Source: Chlorella sorokiniana
Lineage: Eukaryota > Chlorophyta > Trebouxiophyceae > Chlorellales > Chlorellaceae
Reading direction: 5' to 3'
Assembly: GCA_025917655.1 (NCBI GenBank)
Contig: CP084619.1
Location: 2,523,001 to 2,587,000, forward strand
Length of the DNA: 64,000 nucleotides
In this document: positions 2,080 through 64,000 of the stretch, one piece after another
How positions within the stretch are numbered: position 1 is the first letter of the stretch
Layout of the letters: each line of letters begins with the position of its first letter
The notes under the pieces: generated by a model
Told to the model about the DNA's origin: nothing
The model's input: the letters and a program-made list of their open reading frames with translations, nothing else
Databases searched by the model: none
Translations under genes and position numbers: made by a program

Positions 2080-5000
2080 GGGGCGCCCTGAGGGGGAGCT
2101 GCGCTTTCCCGACAGCTTCTACGATGGCGAGGGGCGTCTGGCGCTCAAGAACCTGACCCTGCCTCAGCTGGAGGCGTGGTGCGCCTCCATTGGCGAGGAC
2201 GGCCCCAAGCGCGCGCTGCAGCTGTGGCGTTTCATGTACTACGACCGACAGTGGGTGCGCAGCCTGGAGGACGCGGCTGCGGAGCACGTGCAAAACGGTT
2301 TCAGCCGCGCGTTCCTGCTCAAGGCTACGCCGCTGGCTACGCTGGACGCTGGGCTGCGCCTGCAGTCGGTGGCCCGCGCCGCTGACGGCACCCGCAAGAT
2401 GGTGTTTGGGCTGGCCTTTGGCCCCGCGGCGGGAGGGCAGGTGGGATTGGGGGCAGCTGGGGTGGTAGCCGGGCGCAGCTGAGGGCCGTGGCATCTGCAA
2501 ATCTTCCCAGCGCTTAAACAGGCGGTGCCAGCCCTGGGCAGCGGCGCGCCTCCCCCGCCTGCACTTGATGAGTTGCAGCTCACTCCTGCCTTGTGCTCCC
2601 GGCAGGTGGAGACTGTGTTGATCCCGGTGGTGCGGGAGGCGGGGTCCAAGGAGCGAATCACTCTCTGCGTGTCGTCGCAAGTCGGCTGCGGTAGGCGCTG
2701 GCAGCAGCAAGCCTCCCATACCTCAGCTCGCCGTGCACCCCGCTGCATGTGCCATCCTTGTGCTGCTGGCCCCCCACCCAAGCAAGAGATCGCGCCACTC
2801 ACCCACCCCACCACCCACTACTATCCCGCCCGATCCGTGGCGCGCCTTTTGTCACTCCTTGCTTCCTCCCCCTGGACTGCGCAGCCATGAACTGCCAGTT
2901 CTGCTTCACAGGGCGCATGGGCCTGGCCGGTAACCTCACCCCCGGCCAAATTGTGGAGCAGGCGGTGGCGGCACGGCGCCTGCTGTTTGAGGAGGACTGC
3001 GCCGCCGGCGTGGACTTCCACGTCACCCCCATCGCCAACATCGTGTACATGGGCATGGGTGGGCTTCCTCTTTTCTCTGTTTGTTCACAGGCTGACCTGT
3101 TACGTACCAGTGCGTGTGGGTGGGGTGAGGGATGGGTGGGGTTGGAGGGCTGGATAGCAGGGCGACGATGCCTGCGCCCTGCCGTGCCCCACAGCCCATG
3201 CGCCTTTATGCGGGCGCAGGCTCGCCGGCTGCTGCTCCCCTCCTGACCCAAGGTGCTGACTGTGTTGCCTGTGCACCCGCCGCACCGCTGCCGCAGGCGA
3301 GCCGATGCACAACCTGGAGGCTGTGCTGCCGTCCATCGACACGCTTTCGCAACCGCTGGGCATGCACTTCGCAGCCAGCAAGGTCGGTTGGTTGGCTGGC
3401 TGGGGCAGCAGGCTGAGAGGGCAGCGGTAGCGGCTGACAAACTGTGGCCTTGTGTTCATCTGTGGTGGTGTTGCGCCCAGTGCCACGCTTCTGGCGGGTT
3501 GGCTCTGCCGCATGCAGCAAGCCGCCCACGTGCTTGGGCGGCTCTGCGCATCTGCACTAGCCACCTTCCCCCAACCCCTCCCCACCTCCCATGCCCTCCC
3601 ACCTGCCACCTCCTCACCTGCCCACGCCCTGTGGGTCCCGCCTCCCCTCCCCCGCAACCGCGGTTCCATCAGATCACCGTGTCCACCGTGGGCCTGATCC
3701 CCGAGATGCTGCGCTTCTCTGAAGAAAGCCGCGCGGTCATGGCGGTGTCGCTGCACGCCACCACCGATGAGGTCCGCGACTGGATCGTGCCCGTCAACCG
3801 CAAGCACGGCCTGCAGGTGGGGCGCTGGCTCTGTGTGCGTGCGCGCACGGGTGTGGTCTGGCTCTGGCACGTGGTTTTGGGTCACACCTACATTCAACTG
3901 CACAGGTGGCATCCAGACACAGGCACCCCCACACCGTTTGTGGGGTGTTCGTTTGGGGGTGGGCACACACAGAGCAGCTGGAAGCTGGAAGCTGCTCTTC
4001 ATCATGAGCCGCGTGCGCACCTGCGGGCCATGCGTTCACACCTCCCCTGCCCATGCTGCTGCCGCTGCTGCAAGGTCGGTGCCAGGCGCCGCGCTGAGCC
4101 CCCTCGCTGCCCCTGGCGCCCCCTGCTCCTCCTGCTGCTCTCAGGCCTTGGTGGGCGCCATGGAGCGCCTGTTCCCCAAGGACCGAGCGGCGCCGCGGCA
4201 CGGCCACCACGTGCTGATTGAGTACACTATGCTGGAGTGAGTTGCGGAAGTGTGGTTGGTGATTCGAATCCATGATGAAGCATGTGTGGGTGTGGGCGAC
4301 GTGTGCAAGTTTGGAAGTGGGTGGAGACGCTGCTGGCCCTTAACACCACCCGCCTCATCCTGCCGCCATGCAGCGGGGTGAACGACAGCGACGACGATGC
4401 GCTGCGCCTGCTGGATCTCACCAAGAACATCAGGTAGGTGTGTGCGTGTCTTGCGGGGGAGGGGCGCGTGAAACGTGCCGCTGGGGGTGCGGCACAGCAT
4501 GCAGTCGCAGAGGCGCTCGGGGCTGCGGGACCGCCATGCCTTCTGCTTCATTGGTCGCCGCGGCTGGCGTGCGTGCGTCAGGGTTTGCAGCTGTGTTGCA
4601 GGCCGCCAGGTTGACACTCTCTGCTCCGATGCCGCCGCTGCCCGCAGGTGCAAGATCAACCTGATTGTGTTCAACCCGCACGAGGGCACCCCCTTCCGCC
4701 CCTCGCCGCCTGAGCGCGTCAGGGCCTTCCGCTCGCTGCTCATCCAGGTGAGCAGTGCTGGCCGCTGCAGCCACCAGCGAATCCCGTGCGTGCGTCGCCT
4801 GGCATCCTGGTCAAGATGCCGCAGCATGCCGCGTCAGCTGCTAGTGTGCAGCTGCTCTGGCACCATATGCCTGGCCCCTGCAAACGCTTCCTTCTCACTG
4901 CAGGGCGGCCACGTGGCCACCGTGCGCGAGTCAAGGGGACGACTCCATGGCGGCCTGCGGCCAGCTGGGCAGCAAGGAGCTGGCCTTGCGGCCGCCCCCT

Positions 5001-5114
5001 TGCTCTCGCCGCCGGAGCGCCTTCGGGCGCGGTGTCGGTGGATCTCACGGCGTGACGAGGGCGGCAGGAGGGAGCGTCTCCCATCTTCCAGCACCTTGCC
5101 GTGTAATCTTGTAA
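2080..5114 (+). CDS. rlmN: RlmN-type 23S rRNA (adenine-2503-C2)-methyltransferase, organellar
   Basis: Radical-SAM enzyme that methylates C2 of A2503 in 23S rRNA (the bacterial family also modifies some tRNAs); in an alga it probably works in chloroplast or mitochondrion. Exons: ~2080-2440, 2606-2690, 2885-3058, 3297-3382, 3673-3816, 4145-4236, 4374-4433, 4648-4747 and 4904-5114. The N-terminal exon has DSFYDGEGRLALKNLTLPQL. The 4Fe-4S motif CAMNCQFC (CxxxCxxC) is completed across the 2690/2885 junction. Other family marks are MGMGEPMHN, TVSTVGLIPEM, AVSLHAT and LIVFNPHEGTPF. In the last exon homology shifts frame at about 4931: the uninterrupted frame loses the motif AACGQL, which is read one frame over and carries the cysteine that is methylated during catalysis. 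With that frame the stop is TAA at 5112-5114. Identification is firm; the 5' end and the true C-terminus are not. Confidence 0.88.
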
Positions 5115-5141
5115 ACCGCTGGTCGCTCTAAAGAACTTACA
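5102..5141. terminator. Facing polyadenylation signals of RlmN (+) and SDP1 (-)
   Basis: Plus-strand TGTAA lies at 5102-5106 and 5110-5114; minus-strand TGTAA (TTACA on plus) lies at 5137-5141. The two convergent genes therefore seem to end within about 40 bases of each other. The minus-strand signal would give SDP1 a 3' untranslated region of nearly 1.2 kb. Confidence 0.45.
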
Positions 5142-6319: not shown

Positions 6320-9300
6320 TCAGGGTGCAATGGCATCCAGGCGGTCGGTGCTGTGGTGCTGTCGGGCGCGGGCGAGGAAGGCGGCGCGTGGGCTGCCGCC
6401 GTCGCCGCTGCTCCAAACGTTGGCTGAGGCGTCGGTGCAGTCAAAGGTGGCCGCAGGGAAGAACACCTGCATCATGGCAACCAAGCAAGCAGACGTCAGT
6501 CAGAGAAAAGCGGGGCGCGAGGGCCGCAGCCTGAGCGGGTGAGCTGGTGCGCCCTTGCCATGCGGTCGGTCGCGAGGTGCGCTGGTGGCCATCTCTGCCC
6601 CCGAGCCGCAAGCAGCGGCGGCGGGGAGCTCTCACCCTGCCGGCCCCCGGCGCTCGTTCCTCGGGCAGCGGCAGGTGGTCGTCATCATAGTAGATGCCAT
6701 CGTTGTCATAGCTGCGGGGGGTGGGGTGGGGTGGGGGTTCAGTGGGATGCGCGAAGGGCGGACACGACGCAGCATCAGGCACTTTGTGGGGGGGGGGGGT
6801 CCGGCACTCGCGGGTCTTGGTGCAGCACATGCGGCATTCCTTGACAGAATTCCTTTCGAAGGCAAGCATGCCTCGATGGAATTCCTCGCCAGCCACATCA
6901 GCAAGCAGCCCCCGCCCCTCCCCCACACTCACCCCGCCAGCGAGTCCTGGCTGGCGCTCTTGGTCACGGCGGAGGGGAGGTGCATCCAGGACGGGATGCG
7001 GCTCTTCATGCGCAGCGGGGAGCCGCCGGGGCCGCCCGCCGCCGCCGCCGCGGCGCGCTTGCGTCGCTCCTGACGCTCCCAAGTGGACACCTGCACTTGC
7101 ATCGCCATCATTGTCACAATGCGTGCGTGGGTGCTCCCTTTGGACCCAGGCGTGGCTGCCACTTGGTCAGCAGCAGTGGCCGCCCAGCGCGCACCCGCAG
7201 GGCGGCTGGAGCTCAGCCCACACCTCCCCGCTGCCTTCGCCCCACCTCCCGCCCACCCTCCTCAGCACAGCCACCCACCTGCTGGATGCAAGCGTCCAGG
7301 GTGGCCTCGATGCCGCAGTTGCACTGGATGGCGCTCAGCTTGGCCCAGGTGCACAGCTCCCCCTGGCGCACCGCCCGCAGCAGGTCTGCACGGCGGCGCA
7401 CAGGGCGCGGGGTCAGGCGGGGCTAGCGCGGCTGGAAGGGACGGCCCACAGGCCTCACAGCGCGGTGGTGCAAGGGCCGACCCCAGCAGCCCGGCAGCTG
7501 CTCTCGGCCGCACTGCCGCAGAATGCTGGCAGCTGCCGGGCGCCACCATGCGCAGCGATGCTGCCGGCCCCCTGCCTGCTTGCGCACCCGCGTTGCTGGG
7601 GTTGACCACCGCCTTCCAGAGCTGGAGGAAGGTGTGGGGCAGCACGATGGTCACGTCGCCCTCCCACTGCTGGCTGAACACCCGCAGCCACTTGGAGGGG
7701 GCCCAGGACGGCAGCACCTCCACCAGCTGGCGGCACCTGCGGGCACAGCCAGCGGCAGGCGCTTCGGCTCCGCAAGCAGCTCACGCAGGGAGCGGGAGTG
7801 GCGGTGAGCAGGCGACGCCCCGGAGGGGCGGCGCAGGTTTGCGAGCGGCGCTGCTGGATAGGCCCCACCCCGGCGGCACTCCCCCCGCTGGGGCTTGCCT
7901 GTGCTTGAACTCGCTCTCCGCAACCGCGCCGGCGGTGCCCAGGCGGCGCTTCAGGTTGAGGAAGGGCACGACGTGAGGGTTGGTCTGGCTCACGATGAAG
8001 TGGTTCACGCTGAACATCTCGCTGCGGGGCAAGCAAGGGGGCGAGGGGGTGAGCAGGAGAGGAGCCAACTTGCACCAGGCCCCAGCCGGCAAAGATTGGA
8101 GAGGCAGAGACGGCGTGTGAGGGTTGCATGGCGTGCCGGTATGCGCGTGCCCCAGTGCAGGGAGATGCAGACACCCCCGCCCCCAACCACTGGCGCATGT
8201 ACCCTCAGCCCGCCCCTACCTGAGCCCCGCATGGGCAAGTCTTCTTCCAGGGAGCCGTCCCGCCAGCGCCGCGACCCCTCCCCGCCCCCACCGCCTCGGA
8301 CGAGAAGCGCACGAGCTCGCCGCCCGCAGAGCGCGCCAGCAGCTCCTGCGGCTGGAACAGGCCGGGAAGGCGGAGGAGCAGGCCACCGCCGACCAGACGA
8401 CGACGTGGGGCGCGGTGAGGTAGTTGAGCAGGCGGGGCGGCTCGTTGGTGTCTGCCGCCGTCACTGACACGTTGAGCACGCGGCCTGGGGGGCGGGGGGC
8501 GGGGGAGCACAGGTTGAGTGCCAAGAGCAGGGGAGGGCAGCCAGGACCCAGGTGGGGCCGCATGGGGGGGGCATGTTTGTTTCCCACACTGCGCACGCAT
8601 GGTTCGCCTGCAGGTGAGGCCCCGTTCCTGCGGCGCATGTAAGAGGGGAGCCCACCATGCAATCCCCCTTGCACGGCCCTTCCCTCCAGTGCGCGTCCTG
8701 GTTCTCCCCGCACACCCTGCAGCCCACAGCTGCCAGGGCACCCGCCCTGCCCACCCGTGTGCTGGAACGCCTCCATGAAGGTGAGGTCCCCCAGCATGTG
8801 GCGCAGCCGCTTGGTCAGCACGCTGTGGTCATGCAGCGTGCCCTGCAGGGCCGCAGCGTGGCGGCGGCACAGCGCGCTCTGGAGACATTGCAGCAACTGC
8901 GGCGCTGCCCCCAAGGAGGCAGCTCTAGCACGGTTCAGCCCTGCCAGCGGCCCAGCAGCAGGGGCGGCGGCGCACCTTGGCCAGCAGCTGGCCGATGAAC
9001 TGGGGGGTGTGGAGGAGGAGAAGAAGGAGAGGTCGAAATCGGCGAGGGAGGGGCTGCACAGCATGCCTGCCAGCTCGGCGTCGGTGCGCGTCGCCACCAG
9101 CGCGCACACTGCAAGGGCGGAGGGGGAGGGGGAGGGGGAGGGGATCGACGGAGGAACCATGTGTGCATGTTTACACTTGAAGGGCAGGATCAGTCTAAAC
9201 AACCACACCGAAAGAGTGAGCAGCCGCCAGCTGGCAGCGGCTGCTGCCCCTGGTGCCCAGCGGGCGTGGCTGTGGGCCATCCCTGCAAGCTGCCACACCC

Positions 9301-11035
9301 ACCGATGGAGCCCACGCTGGAGCCAGCAAGCACACGTGGCAGCATGCCATGCTCCAACAGCGCTTTGACGACGCCCAGGTGGAAAGCGCCGAGCGAGCCA
9401 CCGCCGCTGCGCAGCAGGTGCATAGAAAGGTCCGGGAGATTGGCAGACGAGGGGCGTTGAGGCTGCCGTGCATGCGTACGCTATGCCCAATGGCGCCGTC
9501 CAGGGGGCAGTACGCTCCGCAGCGCTGATCCCAGGGGTTCTGGCTCGTGAGCGCCGCAGCAGCGCGGCAGCCCCACCTGAGCACGAGGGCGGTGCGTCCA
9601 AAGGCGTGCCGCGTTTCCTTCAGGAAGGCCGCCTTCTCCTCCAGCGGCAGGTCTGCGGGCGAGCAAGGGGCGGCTGGGGAAGATGTGAAGCAGAAGCACT
9701 TGACGCTGCGTGTTTATGTTCGGGCGGGTAGGCTGCCCAGGGCCTTCCACATGCGCCCACTCACACATACCCCCTCCCGTCTTCCCCCTCCACCCACCCA
9801 CCCACCCGGCGAGTTGGCCACCTCCTCCAGCTGCCCCTTCACCTCCTCGATGTACTCGCGGATGGGCTCCGGGATGACGGGGAAGTGCTCATGCAGCGCG
9901 CTGCGCAGGCAGGGAGGGACGCGGGGCAGGGTGCGAGTCGCAAGGGGAGGCGCTGGTGCGCGCAAGTGACAGAGGCTGTGCCGCGGGTGCTCATGGGCCT
10001 CCATGCGCCTGCAGCTGATACATGCACGCGCGCACACACACGCACCTGTTAGTGATGTTGCCCAGGTTGCGCAGGAGGTCGGCGCGCAGCGCAAACATCT
10101 GGTCGCCCACCACGCCCCCGCCCGCACCTTGCGCAGGTGGGCCACCTTCTCCCTGCACGAATGGGAAGGGAGAGGGAGAAGGAGGGAGGAAAAGCGGGGT
10201 CACGGGCCCAGGCACGAGGCATCATGCGGGCTGCTCGAAAGGAGTGCAGCGGCACTTGTTCCACCGCGCCTGCCGGCGCGCACCTCAGCAGCTTGCGGTC
10301 GTACAGGCGCGTCTCCTGGCTCCAGCGCTGCTGCTGGTCCACGCCCTCCAGCGCATCCAGCTTGGCGGCGTTGATGGACCACTCAAAGTAGGAGCGGCTG
10401 GCCGCCATCTTCCATGCCAGCCGCCGCTTCTGCTGTACCGCCTCGTCCCGCAGGTCTCGTGCCCACCGCGCTGCTCCCGCCGCAGCCGAAGCCGCCAACA
10501 CGCCGGCTGCAGGCGCAGGAGGCGGGGAATGAAGGGGCGGAGGGGAGTCTACAGAGGTGGGGCGGTGCCCTCGCGCACAGCATGGGGGAGCGGTGCCAGC
10601 AGGCGGGTCCATGGCCTTGAAAACAGGTGAGCGATACCGTGTGTCTCAGGGACAGCAATGCTCCAATAAACAATCAACAGGCAGGCCTGCGGTAAGGCTG
10701 AGCTACCAGAGGGGCCAGGGCATACGCGGTCGCTGGCCCTCACCTGCGGCAAGATGCCACCGCCGCACATCAACCGCACTGCCGCCTAAGTGTCGCAGGG
10801 CCCGGCTATGCGGCGCCGCCGCCATATACCCCAGGAAGCGCAGCACAAAGCGGCGCAAGGCTAGGGCTAGGTGCCATGTCGTGCTTGCCCATCGTGCCGA
10901 GGTCCGAAACGGCGCTCCCAGCACCGTGTCAAGCACCGTGAGCAGGAGGCGCAACAGGGACAGGTCCAGCAGCAGCGAAGTAACCGTGACTTGACGGGTG
11001 GGGCCCCCAGGGCACCTCCTCAATGCCGCCTTCAT
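6320..11035 (-). CDS. SDP1: SDP1-like patatin triacylglycerol lipase
   Basis: Triacylglycerol lipase of the SUGAR-DEPENDENT1 family, which starts oil-body breakdown. ATG at 11035. Exons: 11035-10744, 10506-10284, 10152-10046, 9900-9806, 9652-9577, 9406-9303, 9108-8976, 8878-8755, 8484-8220, 8021-7899, 7736-7588, 7385-7279, 7090-6933, 6711-6636, 6466-6320. The first exon holds a hydrophobic stretch ([15 protein letters not shown]). Then comes the DUF3336 region ([33 protein letters not shown]). The patatin domain shows the oxyanion motif [12 protein letters not shown] and nucleophile elbow [38 protein letters not shown] (catalytic DG, Asp of the Ser-Asp dyad) and [16 protein letters not shown] follow, then [10 protein letters not shown] and SRIPSW. 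Homology changes frame at four points (about 10117, 8364, 8260 and 8228), mostly in G/C runs. The intron 7898-7737 has a GC donor (AG|GCAAG). Confidence 0.93.
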
Positions 11036-11758: not shown

Positions 11759-11794
<36 letters not shown>

Positions 11795-14008
11795 GGTGGC
11801 GGCAATGCCGCTGCTGCTGCCGGTTCTGTTCCCAGGGTGCCCGCCTGCCAGCCCCCGACACAAACGTCGAGCGTGGCTGGGCGAGCTGCTGCGCCTGCTG
11901 CACCTGCTGCGCCTGCTGCGGCTGCTGCTCCTCCTGGGCAGGGCCCCAGCCCCCGCTGCTCTCCTGCTGCCAGCCGCCGCCGCCGTCGCCGCCTGGACTG
12001 CTGGCCTGCCAACCCCCGCTGCCTTGCTGGCGCAGTCCGATGCTGATGCCTGCCAGCCGCCCCCGACTCCCAGCCACCCGCGTCGCTGCCACCAGGCGGA
12101 TGCTCGGGTGGTTTGGGTGCTTCTGGTTGAGCTTCATCCTCTGGTGGCGGCGGAGGTGGTGGTGGCCCGCCGCCGTCTTCCGGGGTGGCGGTGGACCGCC
12201 CTCATCGGGCGGCAATGGAGGCGGCTCCTCCACCGCAATTCCTGCCGCCCGCTGCGCCGCTTTGACCCTGCAGCACAACCCGGACCGCCAGGCAGAAAAG
12301 TGCTGTCAGCTCAAGCATGCACTGGCCAGGCCAACACAGAAACAGGAGGGACGCTCGTACGACTGCAGCTCCCATGGACGTGCAAAAGCCCCCCCCCAAG
12401 GCTTTGCCCCCAAAGAGAACCACAACCAGCTAGACACTGCAATCATCTGGCACTCACTGCGCCGCCATGCGCGCTGCCTCCTTCTCCGCCCGCCGCCGCT
12501 CCTTGCGCTCGCGGTCCTTGCGCCCGCTCGCTCAGCATGGCCCGCGTCTCGGCCAGCCGCTTGCGGTGGTGGTGGTCGTACGACGACAGGTGCTCCTCCA
12601 TCTCGTGAGCAAACTGGTACTGCTTGTGGCACACCTGCGGTATGGTGGGCGGGTGGGGGCGCGGGGGATGCGGGCAGAGATGGAACAGAAAGAGTAGGGT
12701 GAACAACGCGCACGGGCGGCACCCAGCCTGGAACTGAGTGCAGGGAGGGGCAATGGCGCGCGAGTGCCGCCCCCGCATGCTGTAAGCTTGCGGGAAAAGG
12801 CAGCGAAGCAGGCGCGGAGTGGCAGCGGCAGGGGAGGTGGCAGAGGGCTGGGAGCACCGCCGGTGCGGGAGCACACAGGACGCAGCGCGGTTGCTGCCGT
12901 CAGTTTGCTCTGTGCAGTTGGCGCTTGCCTGGCAGTAGAAAACGCGCAGCTCTCGCTTGACCTCCTCCCGGATCTTGCTTTGCCGCTCCGCCTCCGCCTG
13001 CAGCGACCGCCCAGGGCGCCAGCTGGCTCAGGTCGGGCGGGCACCCAGCTTCCAATGGCCTTGAGCCCGTGTCAACAGCTGAGCTGCGGCACCGTCTACT
13101 CTACGCTGCCCCGCGCTCTCCACCCCACCTGCCCCTTTGCTGCCTGCCGCCCATGCGGCCACCCTCCGCTGCTCACGCAAGCACTCCCGGGCGCCGCACC
13201 TCGCGCTTGCGCCGCCGCTCCTCGTCCTCATCCGCCTGCAGCTCCACCTCCAGCGCCCGCCGCTCCACAAACTCTGCTGCCGTGTACTGGCGCTCCTGCT
13301 CGCGCCGCCCCAGCCCCGTGCGCGTGCCGGTGTCGTTGGCGTCGAGACGCACCGGCTCAGAGATGCCTGGGGGCGGCGGGGCATCCGCTGTCAGGACTTA
13401 CTGCCGTGGCGGTGTGCCAGGCGGGCGAGCAGCAGAGCGGTGACGCGGGCGTAAGACGGAAGGGGGCGGGGTGCAGCGGGGGGTGCTGCTGCGGCTGCGG
13501 CGGCGTCGCACCCTGCTGCTGCCGGCCGAGGCCCGCCCGGGCGCCAGCCCATGCGCTGCAGCAGGCGGTAGCCCACGTTGCTCTCGGGGATTGCTGCCTC
13601 GATGGACGCGCACTCGGTTTCGTCCAGGTCGACGTTCTCCTCGACGAACCGCGTCATGGGCAGCCTGGCAGGGTGACAGGGCAGGGAAGAGCGAGGGGGA
13701 GCACATCGGGGGAGGGCGCAGAGGGCAGGATGGTGGTGGCCGGCCCTCTGCCAACGCTGGTGGCAAGCAGCGGCTGCCAGGCAAGCAAAATTATGCGTTA
13801 TCGCTGCACTAAGCACGGTGGGTTGGCGGGCAGGTGCAGGCGAGGTGCGGGTGGAGCAGCAGCGGCGGGGCACAGCCGCACCGAAAGTCCTCGCCCTCCA
13901 GCGCCGCCAGCTCCACCAGCTCATCCACCCGCGCCCGCTGCGTGGAGGCTCGGAACTCGTCGCCACGCCCGCGGCCAGGCGAGGGTCCACCACCTCCACA
14001 GGCTGCAT
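11369..14008 (-). CDS. G-patch and C2H2 zinc-finger protein (GPATCH8-like)
   Basis: Nuclear protein of the G-patch/zinc-finger class related to animal GPATCH8; G-patch domains usually contact DEAH helicases in RNA processing. Exons: 14008-13882, 13664-13512, 13366-13200, 12997-12929, 12634-12458, 12267-11369 (TAG). Exon 1 gives VDELVELAALEGEDFRCG. Exon 2 carries the G-patch: SNVGYRLLQRMGWRPG and, one frame over, GLGRQQQG. Exon 3 continues ISEPVRLD and TGLGRREQE. Exons 4-5 form a charged helix and the zinc finger FYCQVCHKQYQF with EMEEHLSSYDHHH (C-x2-C ... H-x5-H). The final exon is low complexity: proline runs, a run of 11 glutamines and an acidic end GSDSEEEGS. Homology or composition changes frame at several G/C runs (about 13963, 13543, 12565, 12210). 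The intron after FYCQ has a GC donor (CAG|GCAAGC). The divergent neighbour is the L31 gene. Confidence 0.82.
11761..11793. repeat. CTG/CAG microsatellite (11 units) encoding polyglutamine
   Basis: Eleven perfect CTG units on plus, read as CAG on minus inside the last exon of the G-patch gene, giving a glutamine run followed by proline-rich sequence. Confidence 0.9.
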
Positions 14009-15769: not shown

Positions 15770-18700
15770 TCACGGGCGTCTCCCCTCGCCGCCCCGGCTG
15801 CGCTTGCCGAGGGCTGACGGCGAGAGCGCAGGCCTGCCGCCCTTGATTGCGGGCAGCGCCGTGTCCAGCGGCGGCACCCGCGGCGCAGCGGCCGCCACGT
15901 TGCCGGCATCCGCATTCTCAGTGGCCTCCTCTGCAGCGCTGTCGTCGCCGGCCGCCTCCTCGCCCTCCTGGCTGACCACCTCCGCCGCCATGTCCTCCTC
16001 TGGCAACTCGCGTTCGGCGGCAGCACCTGCGCGAGTACCAGCGAGCAGGCTCAAAGAAGGGAGAGCGCAAAGGCAGCCTCTGCAACCAATAGGCCGTTGC
16101 TGGAATAAACTACATGAAAGATGAGCAGGGGCACAGAAGGTGCCCGCAGCAGGCCAGCGCCCCGCCCCCCAAAGAGCAGCAACGCACCCGCAGGCGGTTC
16201 CTGTGACACCAGCTGTGCCCGGAACTGGGCAAAGAGCTGCTCGGGGCGGGAGCGCGCAGCGCGTCAATCTCGGAGCGGGGCGGCACGGCGTGCTGCCGCT
16301 GCAGCGGAACCTTGTCTGCAACAAGCGGGGCAACAGTTTGTGGGTCATGCCAGTCTCAGGCTGAGGAGTGCAACAGGTCGGGCTGCAAGGCCTCTGGCGA
16401 CACTCGTCTTGTGTTCAGGCCAGAGCCCTTTGCGACAGCGATCGCACCTCTGTTGGCATCCGAACGGTACCGCCCCCAACCTGCTCCTGCACCAGCCCTG
16501 ACAGCGCTGCCAGCGCTGACACCTGCTCGGCGGCAAAGCCTGCCAGCGCGGCGCCGCCCTCCTCGCCCAGCTGGCGCAGGCGGCCTCCGTCGGCGCCGTC
16601 GGCAGCCAGGCTGGCAGTCGCCGCAGCCTGCATCTCGGAGCGCGCCGCGGCCGTCTCTGCCACCACGGCCGCACACTTGCCCTGCTCCTCTGCAGCCAAG
16701 CCAGCAAGGGCCGCAGTCTGCCCGGCCACAGCATCTGCCACGGCGGCGCTGTGCGCCTGCAGCAGCGCCACGCCCTCCTCGGCGGCCGAAGCCGCCGTGG
16801 CCTGCAGCTCGCCGCCGCGCTGCGCAGTGCCCGCGAGCGTGGCACGCAACACCGCTTCCCCGGCCTGCAGCCCGCCCGCCACTGCGGCGTGCGCTGCGCC
16901 GGTGGCTTCCTCGTTGGCAGCCAAGGCGGCCAGGGAGGAGTGCGCGCTTTCCTCCATGCCTGCCAGCGCACCCTCCAGCCCCGCCTGGTCTGAGGCGAGG
17001 CGGGAGCGCAGGCCCGCCGCCGCGCTCTTCACCTCCGCCTCCGCCTTGGAGGCAAAGCTGCACAGGGTGGGTGGCGCCCGCGCTGGTTTGGTCAGGAGAG
17101 GAGTCAGCAGTCAGAGAAGACGGGTAAGGCCCGCCGATCACGGCCATGCATCGCCGCTGAGAGGCACAATACCCGCCCCCACCCCATGACCCCATGATCC
17201 GCAGCTCTCACGCGCACCTGGCCAGCAAGCCGGTGATCCGCTGCAGCAGCGCTGCCTGCTCCGCCTGGCTGTTCTGCAGGAACGAGGCCTCAAAGGCGTC
17301 CACCGCCCCCGCCGCCGCGCCCAATCGGGCCGCCACGTCGCCGCGCGCCGCGCCGCCGCCGCCGCGTCGCGCGCCGCGCCAAACTGCTGCCGCGCGGCGG
17401 ACAGCGCGGCCTGCGTGGCGGCGGCGGCCGCCTCGCCCGCGACCCGCTGCTCAGCAAGGAATGCGCCCAGCTGCCGCTCCTCCTCCTGCAGCCCCGAGCA
17501 GAGCGAGGCGTATGCCGCCGCCAGCTGCTCCCGGGCCGCTGCCGCCGCCGCCGCCGCCTCCCCCAGGTGTGCGGCCTGCTGCTGGCCCAGGCCCGACAGC
17601 GCGCCTGCCCCAGCCCCTTGCACCGCCTGAGTGGCTGCTGCCGCCGCCGTGCCCACCGCCTCCAGCTGAGCCTGCAGGGCCGCCGAGTCTCGCTGCAGGC
17701 GCGAGGCCTCTGCCGCCTTGCGATCCGCAAAGCCCGCCAGCAGCGCGCCCGCGCCTCAAATCGCTGCGCCTGCGCCTGCGCCGCAGCAGACACCGCCGCC
17801 TCCATGGCCGCCAAGCGCTCCGTGGCGGCGGCACGCAGCTCCTGCAGCGGCGGCGCGTGCAGACAGCATCAGCCCTTCGTCCCCAACAGCTCCCATCACC
17901 CACCTTTCCACCCCCGCCGGGAAACCGACGCTGCCCGCACACCGGCCTGCCTGCCGACAAGTCCCAAACCTCTTTGGAGACTTCTCTTCCCCCATGCATG
18001 CGCCCACCTGCACCAGCTCCAGGTTGGCGTCCTCCATGTCGTTCTTCTCGTCCCACCGCTCAAACAGCAGCGCGACGTCGGCCGCCGCCGCCGCCAGCGC
18101 CGAGTTGAGCGCCGCGGCGTGGCCCGCCAGCGCCGCGTCGCAGCGCTGCTGCGCCGCGATGGCCGCCTCCCGCTCCTGGCAGGCCAGGCGGGCGGACGCC
18201 AGCTCCTCCCGCGTTGCCGCCAGCTGGCCGCGCACCTGAGGGTGGGCGGGCGGTCAGGGGGTGGGGGAGTAAGGCTAGGACGGACGTCAGCAATCAGTTA
18301 AAACCACCAACCCAGAAAAGCTACATGTGGAAGCACTGTTGCGAGAGCGTGCATGGTTTGCCAGGGGGACAGCTGGACCTGCGGCTGCAGCACGCAGGTT
18401 CGGCGCAGGGAGCAGGCACGCCGCTTGCAAGGCACGCTCGATAGCAACTGCCTCTAGCTCTCAGGTGCCATTGCAGCCTCCCACCCCCACACACACACGC
18501 ACGCACCTGCCCCAACTGCAGCTCGTGCGCGGCCTGCTGCGCCGCCATCTCCTGCTGCCACTCCTCACGCGCCAGCTCATGCTGCGCTGCCACCGCCTCC
18601 GCCTCCGCCTCCAGCTCCTCGCAGCGCGCACCCAGCAGGCGCCGCTCCTCGCACTCATCTTCGTATTGCTGGGCTGGGATGTATACGCCTGCAGGGCACA

Positions 18701-46100: not shown

Positions 46101-48800
46101 GAACAGACGGGGGAGGGGAGGTGCGCCGCTCTGCCCTTCCTGCCTCTCTTCCACCCGGCCTCGCAGGGCGTGAGGGCGTCGGGCGAGGGGGCTTGTTCGC
46201 GCCTCCCTGCGGCTGATGCTTGGGGCATTGGTGCGGGGCAGAGGCGGGCTGCCGCAGCCCCGGCACAGCAGTGCCAGCTGGCGCACTCCCCATCACCAAA
46301 CTCTCCGCTCCACACGCATCCGCCCCATTCGCCCGCTCCCCCAGAAACCTTCACACTCACACACCGCATGTGCTCGCATGTGCCCCGCCCCCGCCCAGGT
46401 CTTCATCCTGCCCACCATCCGCATCAACGGCGCCCAGTACCGCGGCAAGATGGCCACGGCCGAGGTGCTGCGCGCCATCTGCGCCGGCTTTGCCGCAGGC
46501 AACACGCCCGAGGCCTGCTCCAAGGTGGGGGAGAGCGGGGGGGGGGGGACAGCAGGTGGAGCAGGGATGTGGCCAGCTGGCGCCCGCCTTGCACGCCTGC
46601 CCTCTGCCACCCTCTCCCAGTGGGGTCTGCCGCCATCAAGTCATCCTGCCCAACACCTGGTACCGCCCGTTACCGCTCATATGACCCCAACCCACACCTG
46701 TCACCACCCATCCACCCCGTACCCCGCCCCCTACACACACCAACACACACCTGCCACCGCATGGAGCAGGCCGTGGACGACCCGTGCATGCAAGGCGGCA
46801 AGGGCTACCAGGAGTGCGCCGCCCGCACAGACGGCAAGACACAGGCACGCCCTGCCCCCCACTCTGACCCCCTGCCGCCTGCGCTACCCATGCTTCTTGC
46901 CAGGCAGCCCGGCAGGTCCCCTGCCCCAGTCGCGCCTGCAGCCGCCGCACCGCCCGACGCTTGCTCTCCCAGACTCGCTGCACACTGCTGCACCTGGCCC
47001 ATACCCTCCTCACCATACCCGCCCACTCACATGCTGGGTCTCACGCTGGTCTGCACGCTGGTATGCACATACACACACACGCGTGCCGCTCTTCTTACTG
47101 CAGTGCGTGGCCACATTCACCGGCTTCAACTGCACCTGCGGCCACGGCTTCATCTCGCACATGGAGGCCAACGGAACGGAGGTGTGTCGCCGCACGGGCC
47201 GAGCTCCCGGCGTGGTGCAGGGTTGGTGGAGGGTGGGAAGACTGCGGCGGCTGGCAGCTTGCATCAAGGGCAAGCCGGCAGTCCCGCAGCTAGTCAAAAT
47301 GTCATCCAACTATCCAACCCAATCGGCACCAGATCGTTTCCAAAGACCCTGGCAAACAGAGCAAGCCTGGCATCTCGCCCCCTCCCCCGCTTCCCCCTCT
47401 GGCAGACGTGCCTGGACATCAACGAGTGCCTGTCCATCTCCCAGCTTGATCCCAAGTGCACCTGCCCACGCTGCGCCTGCAACAACACGCGCGGCGGATA
47501 CGAGTGCGCGGCCGCTGCTCCTGCGGCGCTGCCGCCAGCACACTGTCCACATGCACGCTGCTGCATTAAACCAGTTTGGAATGTGTTGCACGCGAATGCC
47601 ACCAATTCGCCACGAGTGCCAGCATAGGGCTGCCCTGCGCTCCTTGCTTGCCCCTGCTCTGCCCTTGGACCCCATGCACCGCTCCCATACTGCCCTGCAG
47701 GTGCATCACCGACATCCCCAACGAATGCGCCACCAACTACGGCGGCTGCTGGCACGCCGACCTGAAGGTGGGGGCCAAACCCAGAGCTTCTCGGCATGCA
47801 AGGACAACCTGCAGGCGTACAAGGTGCGCAGCAGAGCTATGGGAGGGCGGGTGTCTTTGTTTTCCCTTTGGTTGGTGGGGCGTGGGGAGGAGGTTGGACA
47901 GCTCTCGGTTATGGTATGTGCAGGGTGCCTGCCTCTCTGTCAAGGCCCAAGCGTGTGCCTGCACCATGCTGCGTGTCCCCCACGCTCTCCTGTTGCCGCA
48001 CTGCATGCGTCGAAGCACCGACCGGCATCCTGCTAAGGCTCAACCCTTCAGCCTCTCACGCCCCCTTACGCCCCCAACCCCACCCACAGCGCGCCTTGGC
48101 CCGCGGCCTGCCCGTGGCTGACGTGCCGCTGCATACATGCACCTGCCCGCCCTGCTTTACCGCCGTGGAGCACGGCGGCGCCATCACCTGCACCCCCAAG
48201 TGCGACCTGCGCTACTGTGACCTGGATGTGGGGGTGTGCCACGCGGAGCCGGGTGGAGGAGGTGAGCGGCGGTTTTTTTGTGACATGCCGCCACTCCCGT
48301 GCAGTGTTGGGTGCGTGAGGTGGGGCTCTTGTGGGGGCATGCCAGGCGATGGATCTTCTGATCTGGCACGCCGCGCTGCATTGCCTGCAGGCGGCGGGTT
48401 GGGTGCGGGGGCCGTCGCCCTCATCGTGCTGGCGGTGGTGGCGGTGCTGGGCGGCGCGGGATACCTGGCCTACCAGTACCGCATCCGCAGCATCATGCAG
48501 CAAGAGGTGCGCGTGCATGTGGTGTATTTCATTCATTGCTGTTCATCGATTCGTTTGTTTTCATCGGGTTGCGAGGGGCGGTTGAGTCTTGGCTGGTTCT
48601 GCGCTCTGCGACGGGGGCTGCGGGCGGCACCTTGCGCCTCTCCCACCCCTGCTGCCCCCGGCCTGCAGGTGCGGGCCATCCTCAGCCAGTACATGCCCCT
48701 GCCGGAAGACGGCGACCCAGACCGTGGCCTGGCTGCGTTTGGCAGCAGGCTGAAGCAGCTGGGCGGAGGCGGCGGCGGCGCCAGCAACGGCGGCGTGTGA
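43121..48800 (+). CDS. VSR: Vacuolar sorting receptor (VSR/BP-80 family)
   Basis: Type I receptor that sorts soluble vacuolar proteins at the Golgi. Signal peptide MRCTVFLALLSAIVVGVRA starts at 43121. Exons: 43121-43274, 43548-43663, 43838-43945, 44109-44224, 44396-44521, 44749-44844, 45152-45327, 45621-45758, 45975-46120, 46399-46524, 46770-46844, 47104-47181, 47406-~47550, 47701-47823, 48090-48261, 48391-48506, 48669-48800 (TGA). The PA domain covers GALRGRLVYLDAAYH, ILLVDRG and GARGAIVVNYED. The VSR-specific part has WEFWTNSNDQCGP, NWTVFTPHYIVWICP and RINGAQYRGKM. EGF-like repeats follow (CTCGHGFISH, DINECLS, NECATNYGGCW). One membrane span (AVALIVLAVVAVLGGAGYLA) precedes YRIRSIMQQEV and YMPL, the tyrosine sorting signal of plant VSRs. 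Frame slips lie in C or G runs near 44509, 45275 and 47772. Introns after 46844 and possibly 45758 have GC donors. Confidence 0.96.
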
Positions 48801-48934: not shown

Positions 48935-51900
48935 CTACCCAGCCGCCCCAGGGGCAGCGCAGCTTCGCCCGGTCGAGGGCCTTGCCTTGCAGTCGCCCTC
49001 AGCACATGTCCACAGCGGCAGCGGGAGATGCAGCATGGCGCCCTGGGCCCGCCTAGCCCCCTCTGCACCCATCAAATACGTCGCGCCGTACGTTTCGCCA
49101 CCCTCCTCCTCCCCCTGGCCAGCCTCTGTCTGCATGCCCGTCCCCTCGTCCTCCTCCCGCAGACCATGCAGCTGCTCCTGCCCATGCGCGCGCGGTGGCT
49201 GGTGCGCTTGTTGGCGCGCGCGCTTGCCGCGCGGCTCCCCGTTCGCCTCTTCGCCGCCCTCCCGCGGCTCCAGCTCGATCTTGAAGTCCCTATTGGTGGC
49301 TCGCCGCGCGCGCTGGCCATCAGGTTGACGCCGGCTGACCACAAGGTGTTGCGTGTGCACAAAGCAGCGGCATGAGCAGCGTCACCCACCGGCGTGCAGT
49401 GCAGGCAAGCAGCGCAGGCAGGGTCGGCAGCGCTCAACCAAGATCGAGCAGGAGTAAAAGAAGGAAGAAAGGAAGCAAAGCAAGACCGGCTCGATCACGG
49501 GTGCTGGGCGGCGCAGCTGCAGCGCACCTTGCGTGGACAGGAGGATGAGGTGGCGCTCAAACTCCTCAATCTGGAAGATGAGGGCGGGCACCTGGCGGCT
49601 CTCGCGCTTGGCGCGGTTGGCCGCCGCCGCTCCTGCGCGCGCGCGCTTGCGTGCTTCGCGTTGGGCATCTGCAGGTAGGAGGCCAGGCGCATGAGCACTG
49701 ATGGATGAAGAACTATGAGGTGGTTGGATGTATGGAAACAAGAGCCAAGCGTGCCAAGCAGCCTGCCCCACCCCACCCCAGCTGTGCCAGAGCAGCCGCG
49801 ACACTTATGCCTTGTGCATCACCCTCATTACTGTCAGTGCCTTGGTTCTCCTGTTCCCTGCAGTCGCCTGGAGCAGCGCCATGAACCTCCTGCGGGCAGC
49901 AGGCAGGCGCAGCGTGCTGGGCAGACGGGGTTACAACCGCTGCGCTGCCACGTGCTGCAGGATCCCAGAGCGTGGGGGGCTGCACCAGGCACATGAGAAG
50001 CACTGCACAAAGGCCGCCAGCAAAGACAGCCCAGTGGGAAGCCCAGCCGCACCTGCACAAAGCTATAGACGGCCGGGGTGCAGCTCTTGTTCACCCAAGC
50101 CACCAGCTCGGTGAAGGCGGTGCTGAGTGCCAGCTTGGCGTCCCGGCTCGCTGCAGCAGGGCCACCGTGCAGCACGCGGGAGGCTCACGTCACAGAGGCA
50201 GTCAAGTGACAGGGCTGTAGGGCGGATGGCGGGGCGAGCCACAGCAACCCGGACACACCAACAGACACAGCTCTGCGGGCATGTGCCCACCGGCGCCTCG
50301 CGGCAGCGCCTGCGTCTTGGCTGCCGTCGCCAGCAGCTTGAACAGGCGGGTGAGCGCCTTGAGCAGCATGTCGCAGGGGCTGCCGGTGAGGGGGTGTCAC
50401 ACAGGACGGCTGCACCACGCGGGGCGCACGCCGACCTCACAGCCGTGACCCGCTTAGGAAGACGGATGGACCCTATCTTGGCGCCGATGCAGCTGCCCTC
50501 CTCCCCTCCCACCTAGCACCTCCGCCACGGCACGCAGCCGCGCCAGCACCGCGCGCTCCCAGGCCCGCCGCGTTGCCTCCAGCCGGTTGCTGCGTGCCGC
50601 AGCGCCCTCCCGGCCGCCCGCACGCGCCGCTGCGCCCATGGCCCGCACCTTGGCCAGCGCCCAATCCAGAGTGCTGCAGGGGGCAGCAGGGTGGGCCGTG
50701 GGCGCCGCAGGAGCAACCGGGTCAGCAAACAGGGGCCACCCCTCCGCCGACCCTTCCTATGCAGCTCGGCTGTTCTGCGGTTGCCTTCTCTGCCCTGACC
50801 AAAGTCTGCTGCCTGCGGGCCCAGGCCTCCAGCTGCACCTGTAGCAGGAAAGCCCTCCCACCAGCCAGCCCAGCAGCCGAGCCACGCAACACACACACAC
50901 ATGCGCATGCGCAGCCCGCCCACCCCAGCACTGCCTCCAGGTGGCTGCCTGCCACCCCCAGCATGCCCTGGTATGTGCGTGCGGTGAGCGCGCCAAATCG
51001 CTCCCCCTCCTCCAACATCACCTCTGGGAAGGGAAGGGGTAAAAAAGGGGCAAATCTACGCACCACCAGCATGGGCACGTGGGGCGCTGCCGCAAGCGCG
51101 ATGGCTGCGATGGCGCCGGCAGCGGGCGTGAGCCGCACCGCAGGGCAGGCCAGGAGCTGACCCGCCGCGGCCGCTACCCCTTACACACCTGCATTGAGCA
51201 TGCCGTGGATGTCCCGGGCAATAGCCAACAGCAGGGACACGTTATCGCCGTCGCCGCTGTCCGCAGCCGTCACAACCCCGCCGCCATCCGGCGCCGCTGC
51301 GGCGGCCCGCCCCCGCAGCGCCAGCTGCAGCAGCGCCTTGGCCGCCGACACCTGGGTCAGGCCGGTAATGCGTTCCAGCCCCTCCACTGCCCAGCCAGCC
51401 ACGGCGGCTGCGAGGGGCCGGGCCAGCAGGGGTGCCACCGCGGCCAGCCCGCTGCACAGCTGCTCCAGCTCTCTGGCGCAGCTGGGTTTCAGCAGTGCCA
51501 CCAGCAGCTCATGAAAGAGAGGCAGGGCTGCCGCCACGGCCAACTGCTCCTCATCCAGGCCATCCAGTGCGGGGAGCCCCGCCTCCTCTGCTGCAGCGGC
51601 GCTCGGCGGCGGCAGCCGGCGGAGCACGGCGGCGACGCTGGCGAGGCCCCCAGCCGCGCCCATGCTCAGCAGCTGGTGCAGAGCACTTGCTGCAGCCTGC
51701 AGGGCCGCCGTGTGCAGAGGTTGAACCTAGCAGCGGACGCAGGGTCTTGCTTGCTGACAACAAGCAGCGGATGCAGCGGCGCACCTGCGTCACTGCCTCG
51801 GAAGCATCCTTTTCCTTCTTCAACCCTGCACTCCCAGCCGCCTGTGCAACGCGGGGTTTGCAGTGGGACAGCAGCACCGTCTGCGCAGCCCTGCAGCAAG

Positions 51901-54900: not shown

Positions 54901-57900
54901 CCTGCCGCCGCGCACGTTCACACCTGAACATGGCCTTGCGCAGCAGCATGGCGAGGTAGTCCTGGGCGTCGCGGCGTGCGCGGCACAGCGGCGCGACCGC
55001 CAGCAGCAGCGCCAGCGCGCAGCCCGGCGGCAAAAAGGCCAGGTGCTCCAGCGAAAGCTTCATGTCGGGCAGCTGGTCTGCGGCTCTCCTCGGGAGGGGA
55101 CACGAGCGGGTGTGGGGTTAGGGAGCCAGGGGCGTGCATGGACACAAAGCTTTTCTTAATGCAGCAAATCCCTCGCAGACGTGGCCTCAAGCACACATGA
55201 GCAGCAATGGCTGCGCAAAATAGGCGAGAACCTGGCCTGGGTACGCAACCGTGGCTGCCCGCCGACGCTCACCGCCGATGGTGGCCTGGTTGCGGCGCAC
55301 CAGCAGAGCCAGCAGGCGCACGTACGGCGCCGCGACCTCCTCCCGCGCGCCCAGCAAGTGGAGGTGGCACAGCGACACCAGGTCTTTGCGGAAATCGCGG
55401 TGCGCCTCAAACAGCTCCAGCAGCAGCCGCACGCCCAGGCTGGACGCGCGCTGAGCAGGCGGCGCCATGGAGGCGGCTGTGGCGCCGCCGCCGCCGCCTG
55501 CGTCCGCGGGGCCGCCGCTGGTTGCGGCTGCGGCCGCGGCAGCAGCAGCCGCCAGGCCCTTCCCGCAGCGCCGATGGTCGCAGTACCGCCGCCACCCGCC
55601 TCTATGAGTGCAACCGCCAAGGCTACCATGGGCTGTACCATGCCCGCCTGTGCATGGCCCGAGCAGCGTGCGCAGCGCAGCAGCGAGTCGCGCAGGGCGG
55701 CCACCTGCCCCGCCCCCAGCTCCGCCGCTGCCTTGCTGCTGGGGAAGGGCAGCCAGGGGCAGGAGGCCACCGACGCCGCATCCTTGAATGCGCCCAGCAC
55801 CACCGCTTTCAGCGCGTCTGCAGGTGGGAGAAAGAAAGGGCGACAGCTCACGCATCGCCAGGAACAGCCTCAGCTGGGGCCGCCTCGGCTTGCGCCGCAG
55901 TTCAGGCAAGCAGGATATGGAGCCACAGCAGCGCTGCAAGTGATGCGGCAGCAAGGCAGCGCCACGGCCCAGCGCTCCCACCGGTGACGGGCTGCTCAAA
56001 GCGCTGCATGGCAGCCAGGGTGAAGGAGAGCGCCAAGGCAAAGGGCGTCAGCCGCGGCGGCGCCTCGGCGCGCAGCTGGCGCAGCCAGGCCTGCCCCAGC
56101 TCCGCGTCGTGCTTGGCCGCCATGTCAATGTGCAGCAGCACTGCGATTTGTGTGGGGGAAGGGGAGGGGGTGCGGGGAGGGAAAAAAGGGGGGTGCGGGG
56201 AGGGAAGGGAGGGGAGGGGGACAAGGCAGCGTCGACACAAGCGCAGGTGCCCGTTCAGAAGATGTTGGAGCAGGTCCAGTACATTGTCAGAACTTGGCCC
56301 GAAGGGGCAGTTGCAATGGGGCGGCATGCAGCGGGGACACGGCCCACCCCAGGGCGCACAGGCCAGCCAGGCGCGGGTCCGCCGACGCGGGTCCGCCACC
56401 GGGCGCCCCAGCACCCACCTGCGCCCTGCACCTCCTGTAGCTGGCGCCCCTGGTGGGGGCTGTCGGCGGCCTGCTGCTCGCGGTACTCAAACAGGCGCAC
56501 AATCTCCTGCGGAGCAGGGTGCGCAGGACCCAGCCGGGAATCAGAGATCCAGCTGGCGGCATCGCTTGGGAAACACAGAAACAAACAGGCTTGTTGTGCA
56601 TCTTGGCAAGCGGCATGCAAAGTGTCATCTTGCCTCCTGGATCACCAGCCCTTGCGGCCGCTCCCACCCCCTGAGCCTCACCCCCAGTATCAGCTCCCGG
56701 CAGCCACGGGTGGATAGCATGAGCAGCTGGTGTACCACGGCGGGTAGGTCCTGCGGGCTGGCCACCCGCGCCCGCTCCCCCGCCTTCTTCACCACCGCCC
56801 GCAGCTGGTCCTGGGAGCTGCAGGGGGAGTGTCGGTGCCAGGGAAAACCAGCAGGCAGTACCTGTGAGGACTCCAGTAGCATAGCAAGATACCCGTACTT
56901 CTGCAAGCAGCACGACAGGCTGGGGGCAGACAATGCAGCTACGGCTACACTGCCCCCAGCGCAGGCAGCGGGGCGCGCTCACAGCTGGAAGGAGCGGAGA
57001 GCGGCCAGCACGCGGCCGATGCCGGCCAGGGGCCAGCCGTGCTCGATGACGCGACCCACATACGCCTTGCACACGTCTGGGGGAAAGAAGATGGGCGGGC
57101 ACGCAGCTGTCTGGGTACAGCACCCACATGCTCAGCAGGCGCCCGGAAGAGGTCGGCCTGATGAGTCAGCGGGACGATCTGGTGCAGCACTGCACCCACC
57201 CATCCCAGCAGCAGCACCCACCTGAGACCTGGCATGCTGCGGCGGTCCCCTCCCCGCTGGGCACGTCCACCTCGCCCCCATGGCCTGCAGCAGCGCAAGC
57301 GCCTTGGGCAGCAGCTCCAGCGCAGCGCAGCCCAGCGGGCCGTCGCTCTGGAACGCATCAAACGCCGCCTCCACAACCTGCGATACAGCCGTAGCTGACC
57401 AGCTCACTGCGTAACAGAGCCCGAGATCAAGAGCTGCCCTGCATGCTTTGATGAGCAGCAAGCACTTGCAGCACAGCAGCAACGCATGAAGCCACTGCTG
57501 CTGTGATGCTGATGTGGGACATTGGTTTGCACCCACCTCAGACAAATCTCCCGAACTGCCAATAGTGCCCAGCTCGCAGTCCAGTACAGACACCAAATCG
57601 GCAGCCTGGCGCTCCGTCAGCGCTGGAGCGGAGGATGCGGCAGCAGCGGCACTGGCATTATCCGCACCCTCCTGGCTGCCGCTGCCAGTCGGGGCCAGCG
57701 GCTGTGCACCCAGCAGGCCCAGCACCGCTTGATAGACGCCGAGACGCACCGCCGCGAGGCGGTTAGCGTCGTGTGTAGAACACGGCAACGCTGTAACACC
57801 AGGGCGGCTGGCCACCAGCACTGCTTGCACGTACTCCTGCAATGAGGGAAGACAGCAGAGCTGTTCACCAAGCTGTGCGCTGACAGATGGAAGCAGGCGG

Positions 57901-58151: not shown

Positions 58152-58328
58152 TGCGCGCCTGCTTCCGTTATCCACAATCAAGACATTATAATAGGCTGTG
58201 ACCTTCGGCAAAATGCGTCCTGCGGCTCGCACACTATTGAACAGGCGCCAGGATTCACCCCCTGCTGAGCGTGCTCCGGCGGCGGCCCTATTCAACTCGA
58301 CGACGCAGCACGAGCCAGGCGGCACGCC

Positions 58329-58333
58329 TTACA
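58329..58333 (-). terminator. TGTAA polyadenylation signal of the GT10 gene
   Basis: TTACA on plus is TGTAA on minus, 13 bases after the GT10 stop. That would leave less than 200 bases before the FANCI start codon on the same strand. Confidence 0.5.
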
Positions 58334-58346
58334 CGGCCAGGCCCGT

Positions 58347-61831: not shown

Positions 61832-64000
61832 TCAATTGAACAAGCTGAACTCGCTGGCGAGCACGGCAATGTTGCGGGCGCTGCCAACTAGGGAGAGCAG
61901 AGCAATGACGGTGCAGGAGGCAGCGATGGTCAGGTTCAGCGCCAACTCAGCCCCAACCGGGCTGCGCGATCGAATCCACATCACCGGCGGCAGGATAAAG
62001 GTGATGGGCCTGCGGGGACAGCGAGCGGAATGGCATGGGTTGAGGACACTCGGACGTCACGTGACGAACGCAGCGGCAGAGACCAGCACAGCACAGCAGC
62101 AGCAGGCAATTGCAGGATCGTAGCAGGCAGCTGGCTGTGCAGGACGGCCTCAACGCGGTGCCTGCCCCTCACATGAGGCCCACGCTGGAAATTAGGCCCC
62201 TGTGGGAGAGCCGGAGCAGGCCGCGGGTGGCAGGTTTCAGAGTCAGAAGCGCGTTTGGCAGGGCTTGCAAGTTAGCCAGAGCCCCCAGGCAGCAAGGGCG
62301 AGGGTTGCCAGGAGGCCCGGCAGGGAGCGGCGGCACAGCACAGCACAGCACAGCATGGCTTACATGAGCTCCCCAAAGAAGGGCAGCATGCAGGCCACGA
62401 GTGTGACCGCCGCCACGTAGGCGCTGCGGACCAGCAGCCGCAGCACCAGCGGCCGCGGTGGTGAGCGCATCGCACGCCGCAGCGCGGTTTCGATCGAGTC
62501 GAAGATGGGCATGGCAAACACCTGGGGGTCATGTGGAAGCGGTTGCTTGGCCGGGAGGGAAGGGACGATGCGCGATGAGCAGCGCTTCCTTGTTCCGCTC
62601 CCCCGCCCCCCCCGCCCCCGACACACAGAGAAGCAAAGGAGAACATAGAGCCAATGGTTACCTGCCAGGCAGCCGCCACGTGAGCACCACCATCATGTTC
62701 GCCGCCGCCACCAGCCCCGAAGGCTCCTGCAAGTTCAGCAGCACGTCTGGGAGAGAGGAAAGTGGGGGCAGCAGGGTTGGACATGACTGGAAGGGGAATC
62801 AGCAGGCAGAGACGCCCTGCCCTCAAGAGCCTGCCGCTCGCAGCCTCCTATCTTCTGCGCATGCCCGCCACCCTTCCCTCTTCCCCCTCTCTGTGCTGCC
62901 CAATTCATCCCCACCAACCAGCACAAACCGCCTCTGCTTCGCACCCGAGCTGACGTCCGCACCAAAGGCGGCGTAGCCTGCCACCGCCACGCCGTAGTAG
63001 GCGGCAATGACCACCACGTACGACAGGCCCAGCCCCCGCATCATGGTGGTGACGGTGGGAGGGGGCCGCGCCAGCGTGGCCTGGATCTCCGGCAGCACTG
63101 CCTGGCCTGCAGGAGGGGCACACAAGGGGGGACACAAGAATGCACTGCGTGTAATTGTCGTGTCGAAACGAATCTTCTGGGGCAGCAGTGGCGGTCGTGT
63201 CATGAGAGCCACGAGTTCGCCACGCAGGAAGGAGCGCATGCGCCGGGCCGCAGCAGGCCAGCACAGCACCCGCAGCAGCGGCCCATGTGCCGGTGCTGCA
63301 CCCGCCGCGCACCCCCAAAGGTGAAGGCCACCCCGCCCAGGGCATTGAACACGGAGAAGACGCGGTCGGCGGTGGACAGGCCGTCGTGGGTGGTGTTGGC
63401 GGCGGGGCCGTGCCGCGCGGCATGCACAGCGCTCATCACAGTGGCTATGGTGCAATAGCCGCAGCTCATGAGAGCGCCCAGCAGCGAGATCCACCTGCGC
63501 CAGAGCATATGTGTGCATGTGGTAAGGTTAGGAGGGGTGGGTGGAGATGCATGTGTGTGTGGTGGTGGTGGCGGTGTGGGGAGGCATGAGGCTCAGGAGG
63601 CTTGGGAGGCATGGTGAGGGGCGGGGTGAGGCATTGACCGGTTGCCTCGAGGGAAGCCGCAAGAGAATGAAGGGCAAGCACGCCATCAGCCAGCTGGAGC
63701 ATTGGCTGCAAGGCTGCGCACCAGAGAGAGTGGAAGTCTGGCACCTGGCTCAACAGCAGCTGTACAGCGCCAAAGAGCACAATCCAGCCGGAGATGCCCT
63801 GCGCGAAGGGGAGTTGCGGGGACAGCGCGCCGCCGCGTCGCGCAGGCGCATGCAATGCATCGGGGAGCTCCGGGGTGGGTGTTTGAGGCAGTGGCCCAGG
63901 GGCCCCCTTTCTGCCAGCTCCAGCGCCGGCCCCAACTCTCGCCCCTGCTCACCTCCTGGCAGTCCTTGCCGTTGCAGTCCTCGCTGGCCATGCCCTTCAG
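61832..64000 (-). CDS. Amino-acid permease of the AAAP family, 5' end outside the window
   Basis: Proton-coupled amino-acid transporter like plant AAPs, at the plasma membrane or an internal membrane. Only the C-terminal two thirds are here. Exons: beyond 64000 to 63953, 63798-63722, 63494-63313, 63106-62945, 62746-62662, 62521-62364, 62009-61832 (TGA). Marks in order: DCNGKDCQE; WIVLFGAVQLLLSQVPDFHS then WWISLLGALMSCGYCTIAT, matching the AAP segment with FHxLWW; ADRVFSVFNALGGVAFTFGG; GQAVLPEIQATL; SYVVVIAAYYGVAVAGYAAF; VLLNLQEPSGLVAAANMMVV; VFAMPIFDSIE; LPFFGELMPITFILPPVMW; and a last span (LTIAASCTVIALLSLVGS). All junction phases fit except one missing base near 62682, where HVAAAWQ is read one frame over. 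At least seven membrane segments are visible. Confidence 0.93.

Follow-up and report, generated by a model that had tools for sequence, protein, structure and literature searches.

Single-base frame changes in conserved genes of a Chlorella sorokiniana contig, probably residual errors of a long-read assembly

The closest described systems are assemblies made from nanopore reads. For early nanopore data, an excerpt of PMC5889714 describes all base-callers except Scrappie as 'consistently capping homopolymers at 5 bp', with A/T homopolymers the most under-represented. According to an excerpt of PMC5466710, a nanopore-only yeast assembly made with Canu has 454 of 6243 genes free of insertions and deletions (indels), and carries 17,445 deletions in 12.2 Mb after polishing and 128,050 in 12.0 Mb before polishing. 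Here, we analyze a 64-kb window, the whole stretch from position 2,523,001 to 2,587,000 of contig CP084619.1 of Chlorella sorokiniana, in which exons of conserved genes change reading frame at single points. As in the nanopore-only assemblies covered by excerpts of PMC5466710 and PMC12007338, deletions predominate and many genes lose frame. The window has about one site per kb of modelled coding DNA (18 in 15,958), which is near the post-polishing deletions of yeast and far below the pre-polishing ones given in that excerpt (PMC5466710). As with the early capping in the excerpt of PMC5889714, G/C runs of the window pile up at five and losses prevail on balance. The frame changes, their common direction, and a cliff in the run lengths are present in the sequence. 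In all likelihood, they are residual single-base errors of an imperfectly polished long-read assembly, to which homopolymer collapse contributes only in part.

The window is ~66% G+C, and its genes, on both strands, are split by introns. A self-trained codon model divides its coding DNA into 95 frame-consistent pieces with a total of 15,958 bases. Pfam is searched frame by frame, on the strand indicated by the model, in 14 stretches of the window, and NCBIfam is used for RlmN. The candidate sites are collected in Table 1.

Judged by homology, the change near 22479 of CDC50 is the firmest, and it was outside the clear cases listed in an initial annotation of the window. PF03381 is matched over positions 56-85 (E 4.9e-6) in one frame and over positions 94-125 (E 3e-8) in another. 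Among structure chains, the right side matches CDC50B (E 3.9e-5) and the left side matches CDC50A (E 0.03). In VSR, PF25011 is matched over positions 34-73 (E 1.2e-13) on the left of 45273 and then over positions 74-91 (E 0.039) in the next frame. The right-side match is weak alone (14.1 bits, with an unrelated family reaching 13.2 on the same 20 residues), and gains weight because the profile positions are consecutive. These two sites bear on the possibility that the switches are misread exon borders, with short or unusual introns at the switch points. In favor of this, introns are abundant in these genes, and many exon ends are left open by the codon model. However, only 17 bases separate the two aligned parts at CDC50 22479, too short for an intron, and at VSR 45273 the profile passes from position 73 to 74 in contiguous DNA. 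We therefore consider introns a very unlikely explanation in general, but the weaker sites 30318, 41141, and 41953 could be misreadings of this type.

Two further sites, CDC50 23274 and VSR 47770, have the nine-base context GTGGGGGCC in common. At the former, the left side matches PF03381 positions 243-267 (E 5.3e-7) and CDC50A chains (E ~5e-5), and the 20 residues past the switch give no match in profile and PDB-chain searches. At the latter, Pfam gives no match on either side of the switch. The initial annotation had claimed eight clear switches, besides one at 4931. Among these nine places, profile support is two-sided at VSR 45273 and one-sided at CDC50 23274, and the other seven are without it. 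The sequences at SDP1 10115, VSR 47770, FANCI, permease 62682, and RlmN 4931 presumably fit the motifs of their families, without a model match. Junction pieces compared with Pfam, NCBIfam, and PDB are mostly unmatched. As an observation, the frame changes reported earlier are largely right; the homology cases carry this observation, and the codon model by itself is weak evidence.

The initial list pooled with new candidates gives 18 sites, a biased sample that was not chosen blindly. Sites 13963, 30318, 41141, and 49630 are retained in this count though they depend on the setting of the codon model. Fifteen of the 18 sites are one base short, in line with the earlier statement that one-base losses predominate, and the other three (RlmN 4931, 12527, and 30318) are one base over or two short. 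The sites are spread across unrelated genes on both strands. Five of them touch a G/C run of at least five; such runs, with one base added on each side, make up 1.6% of the coding positions. The earlier placement of the switches 'mostly in G or C runs' is borne out for four of the eight clear cases, which lie in runs of five, but at the other four the run has two to four bases.

The direction shared by 15 of the 18 changes and the context common to CDC50 23274 and VSR 47770 would suit another explanation, that the alga truly carries these frames and uses widespread programmed frameshifting in conserved housekeeping genes. However, a by-eye comparison of the sequence contexts of the 18 sites reveals no common slippery motif among the remaining ones, 13 sites lie off runs of at least five, and programmed frameshifting leaves the cliff in non-genic DNA, described below, unexplained. 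We know of no wholesale programmed frameshifting in green algae, though no search was aimed at it, and regard this explanation as extremely improbable.

In the window, the fraction of G/C runs that continue is.290 from two to three,.321 from three to four, and.342 from four to five, but.121 (34/281) from five to six, and.324 (11/34) at the next step. Outside the coding pieces of the model, in 48 kb that still contain exons missed by it, the fraction is.359 and then.133 (33/249) at the step from five to six. The drop at this step is present in all eight 8-kb bins. With a constant fraction of.328, the shortfall outside the coding pieces has P ~1e-12. GGGGGG and CCCCCC show the strongest depletion among the 1878 hexamers tested. 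Three G runs are exactly twelve bases long (6788-6799, 20253-20264, and 46537-46548), and are possibly another calling or polishing artefact. G/C runs of ten or eleven bases are absent from the window, as are runs longer than twelve, and only one run of nine (a C run) is present.

As controls, we use 14 bacterial loci (L001-L014), presumably mostly coding, of which 11 come from a search with RlmN and three are 50-kb stretches of Nonomuraea. A search for eukaryotic control DNA in viral contigs via beta-tubulin and histone H4 found none. When in-frame stops and shifts are equally costed, the codon model places eight shifts and no in-frame stop in 15,955 coding bases of the window, and 37 shifts in 175,918 bases of the controls. 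At entry penalty 5, the shift rates per 10 kb are 4.1 and 0.73, respectively (8 in 19,400 and 13 in 177,691 bases). Entry penalty 5 with a shift penalty of 11 or 13 is uninformative, because a non-coding detour is cheaper there. Part of the bacterial shifts probably stems from overlapping or abutting genes.

The absence of stops argues against a block of decaying genes with real single-base indels. Decay agrees with the frame changes being really present in the sequence, and run slippage is a common natural source of indels. Substitutional decay, however, should yield some in-frame stops beside eight shifts at equal cost. Furthermore, codon bias and conserved residues persist on both sides of the switches, joint decay would be needed in about ten genes that are unrelated and lie on both strands, and the run-length cliff is present outside genes as well. 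Decay is therefore unlikely.

The reading that we favor is residual assembly errors. The window would be nuclear, GC-rich DNA from a eukaryote resembling green algae, and its assembly would have used long reads with many errors, most likely from a nanopore platform, with imperfect polishing. Leftover single-base indels, mostly losses, would hit G/C runs, with six or more bases read as five, and would also hit shorter GC-rich stretches. Those that land in exons would shift the reading frame. The cellular genes themselves are probably intact, and the real molecule would be free of these frame changes.

Several observations weigh against an assembly artefact, in particular against one made by homopolymers. 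At entry penalty 7, the shift rate is 5.0 per 10 kb in the window vs 2.1 in the controls, only about twofold; two further settings give 5.6 vs 2.5 and 3.8 vs 2.0, and one control locus (L003) exceeds the window with 7.4 and 5.0. Thirteen of the 18 sites fall in CG-rich alternations or in shorter runs, two to four bases long. Among five-base runs with coding DNA on both sides, 13 of 15 hold frame at threshold 3, where the other two and one run of six show a frame change; at threshold 5, one of five such runs shows a change. The bacterial controls also fall at the step from five to six, from.219 to.120 (62/518), approximately half of the cliff of the window. If the bacterial relative drop is granted, the shortfall outside genes has just P = 0.03. 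A/T runs are uncapped (9 of 24 extend past five), and 34 G/C runs of at least six do occur; with its uncapped A/T runs and its persisting G/C runs of 6-12, the window is unlike the data in the excerpt of PMC5889714. Finally, R9 chemistry tended to homopolymer insertions, according to the excerpt of PMC5466710.

The run-length cliff is therefore support for an artefact and not proof of it, because the bacterial controls drop too and A/T runs are uncapped. Likewise, homopolymer miscalling alone, the cause proposed by the initial annotation, is insufficient, because only five of the 18 sites are at G/C runs of at least five, A/T runs are uncapped, and the controls show half of the cliff; an artefact as such is still the best explanation. 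We favor residual assembly errors because they explain together the single-base size of the changes, their direction, their scatter over genes, the lack of stops, and the shift in run lengths outside genes.

As biology, the frame changes are ordinary and probably not a real feature of the alga; their value is a warning to annotators. Gene models from contig CP084619.1 will come out split or shortened, and a missing or truncated VSR, CDC50, SDP1, FANCI, RlmN, or permease should not count as biology. A census of run lengths is a cheap, read-free check if it is set against non-coding DNA of similar composition. The halving at the step from five to six in the bacterial controls matters to anyone who spots bad assemblies by run-length cliffs.

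Table 1 Candidate frame changes in the window. Positions are those of the window.
Feature	Coordinates	Strand	Frame change	Evidence
RlmN-like last exon	4902..4982	+	near 4931-4938, net +1 or -2	three-frame translation
SDP1-like lipase exon	8286..8482	-	~8359-8366, one base short	patatin match on left side; codon-model shift at 8365
SDP1 exon, G/C run of six	9002..9007	-	one base short	codon model at loose threshold; three-frame reading
SDP1 exon	10048..10156	-	five-base run 10115-10119, one base short	three-frame reading
G-patch gene exon	12457..12647	-	near 12527, net +1 or -2	codon model, without homology support
G-patch gene first exon	13884..14008	-	near 13963, one base short	three-frame reading; codon model at one setting
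Kinesin-5-like tail	17219..17848	-	near 17353 and near 17754, one base short at each	codon model
CDC50 exon	22382..22596	+	near 22479, one base short	PF03381 on both sides; codon model
CDC50 C-terminal exon	23206..23327	+	G5 run 23274-23278, one base short	left-side profile; codon model at loose threshold
CRM (CRS1/YhbY) gene	30176..30537	+	near 30318, net +1 or -2	weak codon-model change
Exon of unknown family	41080..41285	-	near 41141, one base short	codon model, some settings only; frame reading
'Fasciclin B' site of the initial annotation	41915..42000	-	near 41953, one base short	frame reading only
VSR thioredoxin-like domain exon	45152..45330	+	45273-45276, one base short	PF25011 in two frames
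VSR cysteine-rich exon	47699..47829	+	G5 run 47770-47774, one base short	codon model; three-frame reading
FANCI C-terminal part	49532..49698	-	near 49630, GC alternation, one base short	codon model
FANCI N-terminal exon	57220..57377	-	five-base run 57275-57279, one base short	three-frame reading
Amino-acid permease exon	62662..62747	-	near 62682, one base short	three-frame reading

In RlmN, TIGR00048 is matched in two frames by exons upstream of 4931, and the junction pieces match no family; the last exon presumably ends with a motif of RlmN. In SDP1, the left side of 8363 matches patatin positions 127-163 (E 0.063) and the right side is unmatched. The exon adjoining 10115 matches DUF3336 positions 6-54, and the junction pieces at 10115 are unmatched. 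The G-patch domain sits in an exon other than that of 13963, which gives no NCBIfam match. The kinesin motor exon is closest to kinesin-5 cut7, and the tail is without homology. The CRM profile is matched in two frames (positions 1-54 and 47-84), and the change at 30318 vanishes at entry penalty 5. A further codon-model candidate, 21092, appeared at one setting only and is left out of the count. The gene carrying 49630 matches FANCI_S4 positions 180-224. FANCI_S1 positions 125-168 are matched downstream of the 57275 site, where the junction pieces are unmatched; the initial annotation had put this run at 57273-57277, two bases off. The permease gene matches Aa_trans positions 208-259 and 289-350, with unmatched junction pieces at 62682. 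The label 'fasciclin B' of the gene at 41138-42431 finds no backing, as the frames searched give no fasciclin match. A fasciclin domain is found elsewhere, at ~26348-26455.

Besides RlmN, the Pfam and NCBIfam matches in the window comprise an SRP54 M-domain, the SDP1-like lipase (DUF3336 and patatin), the G-patch gene, L31, kinesin, CDC50, the CRM protein, an RRM protein, VSR, FANCI, a GT10 fucosyltransferase, a nucleotide-sugar transporter, a DUF2358 protein, the fasciclin domain, and the amino-acid permease. These genes and the base composition point to a green alga. Several single-frame matches score under the curated cut-offs, as expected when genes are split. L31 is intact, as stated earlier, with both of its Pfam stretches in one frame. 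The tRNA and Rfam searches of the whole window give no match. Compared with genome contigs, the RlmN exon finds 11 bacterial relatives with 35-58% identity, and no alga or second copy. In viral contigs, no second copy of the kinesin exon, the VSR exon, or one exact 29-base pattern is found, and a comparison of 40000-64000 of the window with phages only gives no copy of the locus.

At 27363-28398, a DUF2358 match lies beside an exon that presumably encodes a SOUL heme-binding protein, for which Pfam gives no SOUL match at E 0.1. Between the fucosyltransferase and the permease, a CTG-rich 96-base unit is repeated in tandem at 60103-60426 (3.3 copies, 94%).

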